Source: Candidatus Woesearchaeota archaeon (lineage in GTDB: Archaea; Nanobdellota; Nanobdellia; Woesearchaeales; UBA10216). From it: a stretch of 42,545 bases of DNA. The stretch covers positions 1 through 42,545 of the forward strand of contig JACPBZ010000005.1 in the NCBI GenBank assembly GCA_016180105.1. The letters run 5' to 3'. Of this stretch, positions 33,898 through 41,925 are shown in pieces. Below the pieces are notes generated by a model. The model worked only from the letters and a program-made list of their open reading frames with translations. It did no database searches and was not told the DNA's origin. Position numbers and translations under genes: made by a program. Numbering within the stretch: position 1 is the first letter of the stretch; each line of letters begins with the position of its first letter.

Positions 33898-34623
33898 ATG
33901 GCAAAGAAGCACCCTGAGCGGTTCAAGACCCTTAATGACGTCTTTGACCAGTTCACCATTCGCAACCTTTACGTTCTTACAACAAAGGACCATTTCGTGG
34001 ATGGCACGCTTGCTCCCTTGTCGATTGGGAAGGAGGCTAACGTCTTCAGTGCTGAGAGGAAGGACGGCAGCCGCGCAGTCGTGAAGATTTACAGGCTTGA
34101 GACTGCTGACTTTAACAGCATGTACAGCTATCTTGCCCTTGACCCCAGGTATCCGAGCATCAAGAAGAAGCAGCGTGACGTGATTTTTGCCTGGTGCCAG
34201 AGGGAGTATCGAAATTTGCTTGCTGCGCGGGAGGCTATGGTCAGGGCTCCCCTTCCCTTTGCATTCCTGAAGAACATCCTGGTAATGTCGCAGGTTGGCG
34301 ATGAGCAGCCTGCACAGAAAATCAAGGATGACATTCCTAAGCATCCGCAGAGGTTCTTCAACGAGATAGTTGGCGAGATGAAGAAGCTCTACCGCTTCGG
34401 CTTCATTCACTCTGACCTTTCCAAGTTCAACATCCTGAACCTTGACCAGCACCCTGTTTTGATTGACTTCTCCCAGATGCTGCCGGCGAATGCTGCCGGT
34501 GCGGAAGACTTTCTCAGGCGCGATGTGGAAAATGTTTCTGGGTTCTTCAGGAAGCTCGACGTGATGATTGACAACGAGAAAGTGCACAAGGAGATAGTTG
34601 CAGTCGGGACTAAGAAAGCTTAA
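33898..34623 (+). CDS. RIO1-type serine protein kinase
   Basis: A 241-residue RIO kinase. LSIGKEANVFSAERKDGSRAVVKIYR is the RIO P-loop (SxGKEAxVF) with the catalytic Lys, GFIHSDLSKFNILNL the catalytic loop and PVLIDFSQ the metal-binding loop. RIO1 acts in late maturation of the small ribosomal subunit. A TATA box (ctctataaac, 33867-33876) is about 27 nt before the ATG. It overlaps the convergent PIN toxin gene by 4 bp. Confidence 0.94.
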   Translation: MAKKHPERFKTLNDVFDQFTIRNLYVLTTKDHFVDGTLAPLSIGKEANVFSAERKDGSRAVVKIYRLETADFNSMYSYLALDPRYPSIKKKQRDVIFAWCQREYRNLLAAREAMVRAPLPFAFLKNILVMSQVGDEQPAQKIKDDIPKHPQRFFNEIVGEMKKLYRFGFIHSDLSKFNILNLDQHPVLIDFSQMLPANAAGAEDFLRRDVENVSGFFRKLDVMIDNEKVHKEIVAVGTKKA

Positions 34624-35030
34624 GCTTCGTAGAATTCAACGGCAGCCGCCGCTTTTTTCTTGATTTCCTCGTCAAACGTGACAAGCTTTGAGCTGGTTTG
34701 TTTTGCGGCGTTCACAATAACCGCATCTGCTCCTTTTAGGGCTGTTGAAACGGCCAAGTCGCTTGCCAGAGAGGCATCAGGATTGCTTATCGGGATTATG
34801 CTGATAATTTCCTCTCCAGCTATATCTTCCACAATGTTCTTGACTTGTGCTGCTTCCGCTTCGCCTTTGTTCCTCCTTATGACACCACAAAGCTCTACCA
34901 GTGACAACGCTGAAATGACTCCTCTGATTTCACGCCGAAGTATCCTGTCCCTCACCACTCTTGCCTTTTCGTGATGTGCGTCTGATATGAAAAAAGAAAC
35001 CAGGCAAGAGGTGTCAAGAAGTAAAGTCAT
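34620..35030 (-). CDS. VapC-like PIN-domain toxin
   Basis: A 136-residue PIN protein: TLLLDTSCLVSFFISDAHHEKA has the first Asp, ALSLVELCGVIRRN the Glu, ALKGADAVIVNAAKQT the third acidic residue and KLVTFDEEIKKKA the last (TFDxE). It follows the AbrB-type antitoxin gene by 3 nt. Such RNases are held inactive by the antitoxin and usually cut structured RNAs. Confidence 0.87.
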   Translation of the reverse strand: MTLLLDTSCLVSFFISDAHHEKARVVRDRILRREIRGVISALSLVELCGVIRRNKGEAEAAQVKNIVEDIAGEEIISIIPISNPDASLASDLAVSTALKGADAVIVNAAKQTSSKLVTFDEEIKKKAAAAVEFYEA

Positions 35031-35033
35031 CTG

Positions 35034-35282
35034 TCACCTCCTTTCCCTTCGCACTGCTTCCACGGAATCAAGCCCCTTCGGCCATTTAGCGGAAACTCTG
35101 GTTGCAAGTTCGTCGAATGATTTTATCAGCTTCTCTGCATTAAACGGCTTTATGAGTATCCCGTCCTTGGTCACTTGTGCCTCTACCATTTCCCCTTCGC
35201 GCAGTCCGGCTTCCGCCCTTAGCTTCTTCTTGAGCACAATCTGCCCCTTCGGCCCGATTTTACTTACCGCTGTCAGAGTCAT
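35034..35282 (-). CDS. AbrB/SpoVT-type antitoxin
   Basis: An 82-residue protein. AVSKIGPKGQIVLKKKLRAEAGLREGEMVEAQV is the swapped-hairpin AbrB DNA-binding domain; the C-terminal FDELATRVSAKWPKGLDSVEAVRRERR would bind the toxin. TTAAATATTAG on the minus strand (about 35302-35312) is the promoter, about 25 nt upstream of the ATG. A direct repeat over the start (35281-35304) is the likely operator. Confidence 0.87.
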   Translation of the reverse strand: MTLTAVSKIGPKGQIVLKKKLRAEAGLREGEMVEAQVTKDGILIKPFNAEKLIKSFDELATRVSAKWPKGLDSVEAVRRERR

Positions 35283-37496: not shown

Positions 37497-37829
37497 AAGG
37501 CGGGATTTGCCTTGTTAATGAGAGTATTTAAAGGATTGCCCGATGAAATGAAGAAAAACTTGGCTTCCAGCTGGCTGATGTCGGTTTTTATGTGGCGCTA
37601 TTTTTGTGAGCTTTCTGTGCGGCCCCGTTTGCGTTTCAGCAAAGGCCGCTATTCGCCCCTTTCGCCACCCGCATCGCTAGGCATATTGCCTGTCGCTTTC
37701 ACGGCTGGTAAGCCTTGTGTCCTGAAATGATTTTTCTCTTGACACTCTGGGCATCACCTCGCGGTATCCTTGTTCAGGACAAGTCATATGGAGCGTTTGA
37801 TTTATTTAAGGCTTTAGTATATACTTGCC
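37497..37829. other. Intergenic stretch without a convincing gene
   Basis: The plus-strand track ORF 37446..37730 has no promoter match at a suitable distance and a composition (RPRLRFSKGRYSPLSPPAS) that does not look like a folded protein. The minus strand has a 25-codon ORF from 37754 that stops at TAG. A TATA-like tttatttaag (37801-37810) near the right end probably serves the structured RNA that follows. Confidence 0.4.
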
Positions 37830-38000
37830 ATACTAAAGCACCACCCATCAAAGACTGGTGTGATTATTAGCTATTGTCAAGTGGTGCTTAGTGCTCAGAA
37901 CTTTCCTCAGTAAAACAACAAATTCTGTCACTAGTCCAAGGCTAGTGGGAAATGCTCAGAAACAGCTGTTTCTGGCACTCAGAAATCTGCGGATTTCTGA
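37830..38000 (+). ncRNA. Probable structured non-coding RNA with four hairpins
   Basis: After a TATA-like tttatttaag (37801-37810) come four hairpins in a row. Hairpin 1: CTAA(A)GCACCAC paired with GTGGTGCTTAG (37833-37891). Hairpin 2: CACTAG-tccaagg-CTAGTG (37929-37947). Hairpin 3: the perfect 18-nt palindrome CAGAAACAGCTGTTTCTG (37957-37974). Hairpin 4: CAGAAATC-tgcg-GATTTCTG (37980-37999). CTCAGAA recurs at 37894, 37955 and 37978, the last two at the feet of hairpins 3 and 4. No ORF fits. I recognise no known RNA class. Confidence 0.45.
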
Positions 38001-38037
38001 TGGTTCTGACATTTGTAACTGCCGCGGTAAGTTGTTA

Positions 38038-38193
38038 TCAGGGTCGTGCTGCTGTCTCTCTCATGAATTTCTCGACAAGCACGTTTGCTGAAAAGCCGTG
38101 CTTCGAGCACCATCTCATGTAGTCGTCATACACTGACCGTTCAACCACTAAGTCAAGCTTTATTTTTGATATTCCTTTTGGGGTTGCTGCCAT
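38038..38193 (-). CDS. Small ribbon-helix-helix-like DNA-binding protein
   Basis: Too short for the track: 51 residues from the ATG at 38193, preceded by GAGGTGATTTG, a strong ribosome site. TPKGISKIKLDLVVERSVYDDYMRWCSKHG has a beta-strand then helix, and FSANVLVEKFMRETAARP a second helix, consistent with a MetJ/Arc-type fold. A TATA-like element (ctattttatagg, near 38226-38237) lies upstream. It could be an orphan antitoxin or a repressor of nearby genes; no toxin is adjacent. Confidence 0.6.
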   Translation of the reverse strand: MAATPKGISKIKLDLVVERSVYDDYMRWCSKHGFSANVLVEKFMRETAARP

Positions 38194-41101: not shown

Positions 41102-41620
41102 ATGATTATTTGCGATAGTTCATCGTTGATTTTGCTCGCGAAAATAAGCAGGTTGGAAATCGCGCATAGCTTGTTCGGAACGATTTTGATTCCAAGAGCT
41201 GTTTATGATGAAGCTGTAGTCAGGGGCAAGGAGGAGCGCTACACCGATGCGTTCCTGATTGATAAGCAGGTAGGCGGGCTAGTAATGGTAAGAGAGCTCG
41301 ATAAGGCGCATATGGAAAAGGCTGAAAGCCTTAAAGCAGTCATTGGCAGAGGCGAAGCAGAAGCAATAGCGCTGTGCGCGCAGGAAAAGCAAAAAATTTT
41401 GCTCACGGACGATTTGGAGTCTGTCAGGATTGCAGAGTTGCACGGGATAAAGTGCAGGACGACGTTGGGGGTGCTGTACGAAGCCCTCAAGAAAGGGCTT
41501 CTGCAGCTAAAGGATTATGAGTCTGCCCTGAAGGATTTTTCCAGGAACGCGTGGGTTTCGGCCGAGGTCGTTGCGGAATTTTGGCAGGTGGGACAAAGGT
41601 TAAAGGGTGATAAGAGATGA
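41102..41620 (+). CDS. PIN-like toxin, DUF3368 family
   Basis: A 172-residue protein. MIICDSSSLILLAKISRLE gives the first Asp, GRGEAEAIALCAQEK the central acidic pair and LLTDDLESVRIAE the last; TTLGVLYEALKKGLL is typical of the DUF3368 branch. These PIN-fold proteins are predicted RNases paired with UPF0175-like antitoxins, as here, where the antitoxin gene overlaps by 4 bp (ATGA). The toxin-first order is the usual one is not assumed. A TATA-like ttatataatc lies near 41048-41057. Confidence 0.85.
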   Translation: MIICDSSSLILLAKISRLEIAHSLFGTILIPRAVYDEAVVRGKEERYTDAFLIDKQVGGLVMVRELDKAHMEKAESLKAVIGRGEAEAIALCAQEKQKILLTDDLESVRIAELHGIKCRTTLGVLYEALKKGLLQLKDYESALKDFSRNAWVSAEVVAEFWQVGQRLKGDKR

Positions 41621-41925
41621 AACAGCAAAGGGTAAGCTTGACTTTGCCAAAAAAATTATTGGAAGAAGCGGAAAAAATGGCAGCGCAAAAATTTGAAGAC
41701 AGGTCAACAGCAATAAGGGAACTGCTGGCAATAGGAATAGCCAGTTACAAGGAAAATGAAGCGGTAAAAAACTATGCCGAAGGTAAGCTGTCACTCGGCA
41801 AAGCGGCAGAACTGGCAGGAGTTTCAACGTGGCGCTTAATAGACCTTCTAAGAGAAAAAAAAGTTCCATTGAGGTACGATCTTGATAAGCTAAGAGAAGA
41901 AATTAAAGCCTTAGTCGCCACTTAA
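41617..41925 (+). CDS. Antitoxin with RHH and UPF0175-like domains
   Basis: A 102-residue protein. QRVSLTLPKKLLEEAEKMAA and DRSTAIRELLAIGIASYKEN form a ribbon-helix-helix DNA-binding unit. YAEGKLSLGKAAELAGVSTWRLIDLLREKKVPLRYD is the UPF0175 helix-turn-helix signature. It follows the DUF3368 toxin with an ATGA overlap, so synthesis is coupled. It probably neutralises the PIN protein and represses the operon. Confidence 0.87.
   Translation: MKQQRVSLTLPKKLLEEAEKMAAQKFEDRSTAIRELLAIGIASYKENEAVKNYAEGKLSLGKAAELAGVSTWRLIDLLREKKVPLRYDLDKLREEIKALVAT

Follow-up and report, generated by a model that had tools for sequence, protein, structure and literature searches.

The evidence points to the hairpins between positions 37833 and 38011 of the stretch analysed here (the window: contig C37, 42.5 kb, of an 888-kb genome in 49 contigs) being one copy of a dispersed family of gene-free mobile elements in the order Woesearchaeales, that is, mobile DNA and not an RNA gene. 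The element is probably a non-autonomous piece of DNA that works like an 'ends-only' element of the IS200/IS605 type. The family is apparently undescribed so far, since no published description was found in the open literature searched, which is a part of all literature. What is known of target choice by guides in IS200/IS605-type DNA comes largely from in vitro work on a few bacterial elements and from engineered guides; in the present family guide and target change together across a large natural set in uncultured archaea. If the reading is true, many guide-target pairs are available ready-made, the family illustrates how compact an element of this sort can be, and looking for the transposase becomes a defined question. 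The family would also account for some of the broken contigs and of the hairpins between genes in assemblies of Woesearchaeota.

To delimit the window copy we drew its boundaries from the empty sites of other copies and from conserved ends (Table 1); its own empty site was sought in relatives and not found. The covariance model that detects it, CM R1, was built from nine copies with the window copy excluded. A preliminary description had placed a four-hairpin putative RNA at 37830–38000. The stems it listed, the 18-nt perfect palindrome (CAGAAACAGCTGTTTCTG, 37957–37974) and the CTCAGAA repeats (at 37894, 37955 and 37978) are all present, and only chance ORFs of 51–66 aa overlap the region it called free of ORFs. 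The hairpin region is thus real, while the family unit is instead 37833–38011: an outer pairing missing from that list, TCAGAAC/GTTCTGA, closes it, and the upstream hairpin at 37811–37839 falls mostly outside. The TATA box of that description has no support as a promoter (a bacterial sigma-70 scan gave 1 match against 0.8 expected). Stem P1 carries a compensatory change, AAGCACC/GGTGCTT against AAGAACC/GGTTCTT in most copies. Standard copies have AAAA or TATA where the window copy has a guide remnant, and the extra hairpins at 37952–38002, the source of two of the three CTCAGAA repeats, set this remnant apart from the element end. Because the enlarged two-hairpin module recurs in several copies of genome G017 and in G001, it is probably a sub-family that itself spread. 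The bases at 38012–38015 are taken to be host DNA since four other copies have empty sites in which the equivalent bases are already present. The flank at 37811–37832 is absent beside other copies; the hairpin to which it contributes, GCTTTAGTAT..ATACTAAAGC (37811–37839), straddles the 5' end of the element, and its flank half, the reverse complement of the variant end CTAAAGC of this copy, is possibly the remnant of an inverted copy.

Table 1. Parts of the window copy and its immediate flanks (positions are those of the window).
Feature	Position	Strand	Basis or remark
Whole element, type A, enlarged form	37833..38011	+	CM R1 match, 66.3 bits, E 3.6e-14
Element read on the complementary strand: start TGTCAGAA, end ..TTTAG		-	IS200/IS605-like LE..RE reading
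Domain 1: CTAAAG end and stem P1, enclosing inner hairpin H1 and linker	37833..37890	+	
Stem P1, AAGCACCAC/GTGGTGCTT	37836-37844 / 37881-37889	+	
Domain 2: stem P2, enclosing variable part, hairpin H2 and extra hairpins	37891..38011	+	
P2 outer pairing, GTGcTCAGAAC with GTTCTGACA	37891-37901 / 38003-38011	+	
Inner hairpin H2, TCACTAGTCCAAGGCTAGTGG, the copy of H adjoining the guide	37928..37948 (approximate)	+	
Guide remnant GAAAT after GG	37947..37953 (approximate)	+	Alignment to standard copies
Two extra hairpins, TGCTCAGAAACAGCTGTTTCTGGCA and CTCAGAAATCTGCGGATTTCTGA, between guide and end	37952..38002	+	
Putative target tetranucleotide TTTG (family consensus TTTT(A)), inferred host DNA	38012..38015	+	
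Flank GCTTTAGTAT..CATA, can pair with the element 5' end; outside the family unit	37811..37832	+	Inverted repeat

Copies throughout the family follow one plan. The 5' end, CTAAAG (type A) or TGTCAA (type B), leads into stem P1 (AAGAACCACC..GGTGGTTCTT), which encloses hairpin H1 and a linker; a domain junction, AGTGC (type A) or GAGCATGC (type B), is followed by stem P2 (TCAGAATTTTCC..GGAAAATTCTGA), within which lie a variable part and the second H hairpin, H2; and the 3' end is GACA, then TTTT(A). In most copies H1 and H2 have a common sequence, CCACCnGTC-AnA-GACnGGTGG, so that similar subterminal palindromes lie at both ends. Type A has no terminal inverted repeats, whereas type B has TGTCA/TGACA, with a T before GTCA in 44/44. 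Inverted copies of both ends abut mid-element, placing each end within a long stem. With a median length of 152 nt (70 copies) the element is too short to encode a transposase, and there are also minimal, ends-only copies of about 55–60 nt that lack the H hairpins, which tells against the mechanism proposed below. Two-hairpin examples of these with the usual ends lie at about 1470–1530 in locus L024 and about 3470–3535 in L279.

BLASTN over 193 relatives gave matches in 25 genomes, with many copies in several. Further copies in the same genome and a covariance search had been named in the preliminary description as checks: related copies were found, and the covariance model matches 117 of the 353 genomes of the order. 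Among 371 genomes sampled from the phylum, matches occurred in the order and in five genomes of other orders in the same class, and none beyond the class. An exact pattern run over 84,980 species hit 46 places, all 46 in Woesearchaeota or archaea labelled simply 'archaeon', and viral contigs searched with two patterns gave no matches. Copy numbers are lower bounds, and so underestimates, because only nine candidates were scored per genome; one genome, G127, holds about 13 copies within 396 kb. The window's own genome has four covariance-model matches, including one at C11:6895-7103 and a partial one that starts contig C7. On contig C43 a partial related copy (80%) directly follows an alcohol dehydrogenase-like gene and is ended by the contig end. 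Since two of these four copies (G000:C43:30614 and G000:C7:7-82) lie at contig ends, the repeat probably breaks the assembly.

The family is dispersed and has recently been moving. We joined the flanks of each copy and sought the product in sister genomes, which yielded four precise empty sites: TTTATTT^TTTTATTAATC in G005 for a copy of G007, and CGTTT^TTTTGCC, CAATTA^TATTTACGG and AAATA^TATAAATC in G069 for three copies of G127. None shows target duplication beyond one T assignable to either side, and this absence speaks against a MITE of a DDE transposon. The second of these four sites falls in an ORF of about 150 codons, intact in G069 and disrupted by the copy in G127. Such empty and filled pairs reflect insertion or precise excision, which is mobility either way. 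Copies within a genome are up to 97–99% identical, mostly intergenic, and stand in both orientations relative to both neighbours. Of the two possibilities joined in the preliminary phrase 'mobile or regulatory RNA', the mobile one is borne out, by related copies in the same genome and in 100+ others and by the clean empty sites.

Most of the sequence is accounted for by a relation between an internal tetranucleotide and host DNA at the insertion site. Standard copies read H2, GG, a 4-nt guide, TTCTGACA and then host DNA, and the host bases beside this end pre-exist in the empty sites; they are thus the target, 3–4 nt on one side only. Guide AAAA with host TTTT is the combination in most copies. 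The first three copies with guide TATA had host TATA or TATT, and the corresponding prediction was recorded ahead of the wider search, in which the TATA form was found at 77 places in all 353 genomes against 4 for a reversed control pattern; a sample was then fetched. Guide TATA is accompanied by host TAT in 45/49 copies, and guide AAAA by host TTT in 44/50 and by TAT in 1/50 (Fisher p 3e-22 with copies treated as independent; they are not fully so by descent, and their insertion sites differ). Only the AAAA and TATA classes were counted; those with TGGT and GTGG are left ends caught by the pattern and were left out. Three positions fit linear Watson-Crick pairing of guide with target, and the fourth host base is independent of the guide. 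As only one of the three varies between the classes, support is strong at this position, while the other two are consistent with pairing. An exception is the dated empty site CAATTA^TATTTACGG, where an AAAA guide met target TATT. Applied to the TATA class, the crossed pairing known from IS608 does not fit.

This logic of target choice is that of IS200/IS605 peel-and-paste. In IS608 a guide tetranucleotide 5' of a hairpin pairs with the target, and insertion is without duplication (PMC5934647, PMC7290912); in IS608 and its relatives the guide stands at the 5' foot of a subterminal hairpin and the target is one-sided (PMC5934647, PMC7290912, PMC8266576). The Woesearchaeales element likewise has a tetranucleotide at the foot of a subterminal hairpin that selects the sequence flanking one end, and it inserts cleanly. 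Unlike IS608 it is much smaller, has neither tnpA nor tnpB, and its guides are AT-only (AAAA, TATA) with linear 3-nt pairing in place of the crossed pattern. From the shared logic we infer that the element travels as single-stranded DNA through the action of a Y1 transposase in trans. The strand complementary to the + strand would fold when single-stranded, in the layout target(TAAAA) / TGTCAGAA-guide-H2 ... H1-GGTTCTTTAG / (or ..GGTTCTTGACA /), with slashes marking the element's limits. The Y1 (HUH) enzyme, supplied in trans, would bind the similar hairpins H1 and H2, cut both ends and then join them, and the single strand would be re-inserted 3' of a site chosen via guide pairing.

The stems themselves are maintained, as the preliminary description had supposed, and this raises the possibility that selection acts on a structured RNA (a regulatory RNA, a 3' UTR element or a component of an RNA-guided system) that spread with the element. 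Such a reading draws on the fold of 37800–38030 on the + strand, which is better than that of 200/200 dinucleotide shuffles (z -4.0), and on very strong covariation: in a pair of neighbouring stems, both with a hairpin inside, 27/33 pairs have changes on both sides. Over 92 distinct copies the paired cells amount to 94.9%, with a covariation of 0.291 against 0.126 for shuffled and 0.02–0.07 for slid controls; fitting the alignment to the structure gave the structure an advantage, yet the controls are still far lower. The same interval folds almost as well as RNA from the reverse strand (z -3.5), and the reverse strand of the element folded as DNA reaches z -5.7. At one P1 pair 44 copies have G-C and 42 have A-T, G-T or A-C intermediates being nearly absent, and such switches suggest, though not decisively, that the palindrome is maintained as DNA. 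RNA tolerates G-U, whereas stem mismatches show no excess of G-T over A-C at most positions (23 against 25 without seven systematically variable columns; 114 against 72 with them). No Rfam family matched at gathering or permissive thresholds, a tRNA/tmRNA search found none, copies keep no fixed orientation to their neighbours, and the guide-target relation involves host DNA at the insertion site. We thus regard a selected RNA as improbable, and the non-coding or regulatory RNA of the preliminary description is not supported.

More weight attaches to the question of which enzyme is the mover. Mobile DNA moved by something other than Y1 (another HUH enzyme, a plasmid or virus protein), with the guide-target match arising from different chemistry, is a minority possibility. 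Among about 30 Y1 loci from other genomes none has the family ends around the gene; Y1_Tnp had no match in the window's own genome (assembly 89% complete) or in the element-rich G069 and G200; and 80 right ends included no full-length autonomous parent (64 were ordinary composite copies and 16 truncated, minimal or chance ones). The short terminal inverted repeats of type B would also suit such an enzyme, and there is a precedent in Haloquadratum, whose small mobile repeats have inverted ends, no duplication and an unexplained mover (PMC3119063). Against this stands the combination of a guide by a subterminal hairpin, a one-sided target and no duplication, which is the known Y1 signature, and incomplete MAGs can miss a gene as small as that of a Y1 transposase. 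Y1_Tnp is found in 55/117 element-bearing and 70/236 other genomes, a weak association (odds ratio 2.1, p 0.002, uncorrected for phylogeny or completeness). Y1 transposase ORFs of about 190–240 aa occur in many Woesearchaeales genomes (L134 1405-1968 and similar loci) and are longer than the median of the IS200-type subclass, 152 aa. Because a shared transposon end was sought and not found, we have not filed the element as a member of the IS200/IS605 ends-only group. A bolder proposal, which we think unlikely, is that something other than a resident Y1 transposase moves these minimal DNA elements throughout the class, with target specificity switched in nature by a guide change from AAAA to TATA plus its P2 partner strand; this would amount to guide-programmed integration by an undiscovered enzyme. 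Least probable are palindromic repeats of the REP/BIME kind that owe their spread to a domesticated TnpA-REP (RAYT) protein. Many short, dispersed intergenic palindromes and multi-hairpin mosaics recall them, but the GTAG (or CGTC) tag is absent beside the hairpins, where AAAA/TATA and AATC/CATT adjoin H instead; the loci examined have no adjacent tnpA gene and none carrying these hairpins; the family is a fixed two-domain unit with dated insertions; and in a published survey the IS200-type subclass was the sole one found among Archaea (PMC6006769).

Returning to an IS200/IS605-like element moved in trans, the closest relatives in kind are the PATEs of Haloquadratum walsbyi (PMC3119063) and the ends-only IS605 elements of Halanaerobium (PMC7290912), which are likewise gene-free, with similar palindromes near both ends, many copies, strain-specific insertions and no target duplication. 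The gene-free Haloquadratum elements move without an intact transposase, which is the same puzzle (PMC3119063). PATEs share their palindromes with resident IS605-type transposons, whereas no resident transposon shares ends with the Woesearchaeales element; they also lack the terminal inverted repeats of type B and the inverted copies of both ends mid-element. Haloquadratum SMR-A (about 110 bp) resembles the element in its inverted ends, lack of duplication and unexplained mover, but prefers to insert into IS605/PATE palindromes, whereas the target of the Woesearchaeales element is an AT-rich site of 3–4 nt that its internal guide matches.

Around the window copy, PIN + MazE/AbrB-like and PIN + UPF0175/ribbon-helix-helix genes form toxin-antitoxin-like pairs at 34620–35282 and 41102–41925 (Pfam). 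Compared with window 37783–38053, loci L257 and L259 (genomes G004 and G002) carry a 273–276 aa aldo/keto reductase gene between conserved flanks, in the interval that the element alone occupies in the window genome; the gene appears to have been lost or replaced there. In other families of the order there are longer arrays of several different hairpins with linkers such as GGCACTCA and TGCTCAGAAA (L022 1392-1652, L013, L017, L021 and L028), akin in motif to the two extra hairpins found in the window copy. At L061 901-1022, L225, L202 and L190 the right end is followed by TGTCAAAA, the start of a next element, as in tandem or nested insertions. Finally, comparison of L030 with L005 and L006 shows that some copies have the part inside P1 inverted, which looks like a flip of the hairpin loop.
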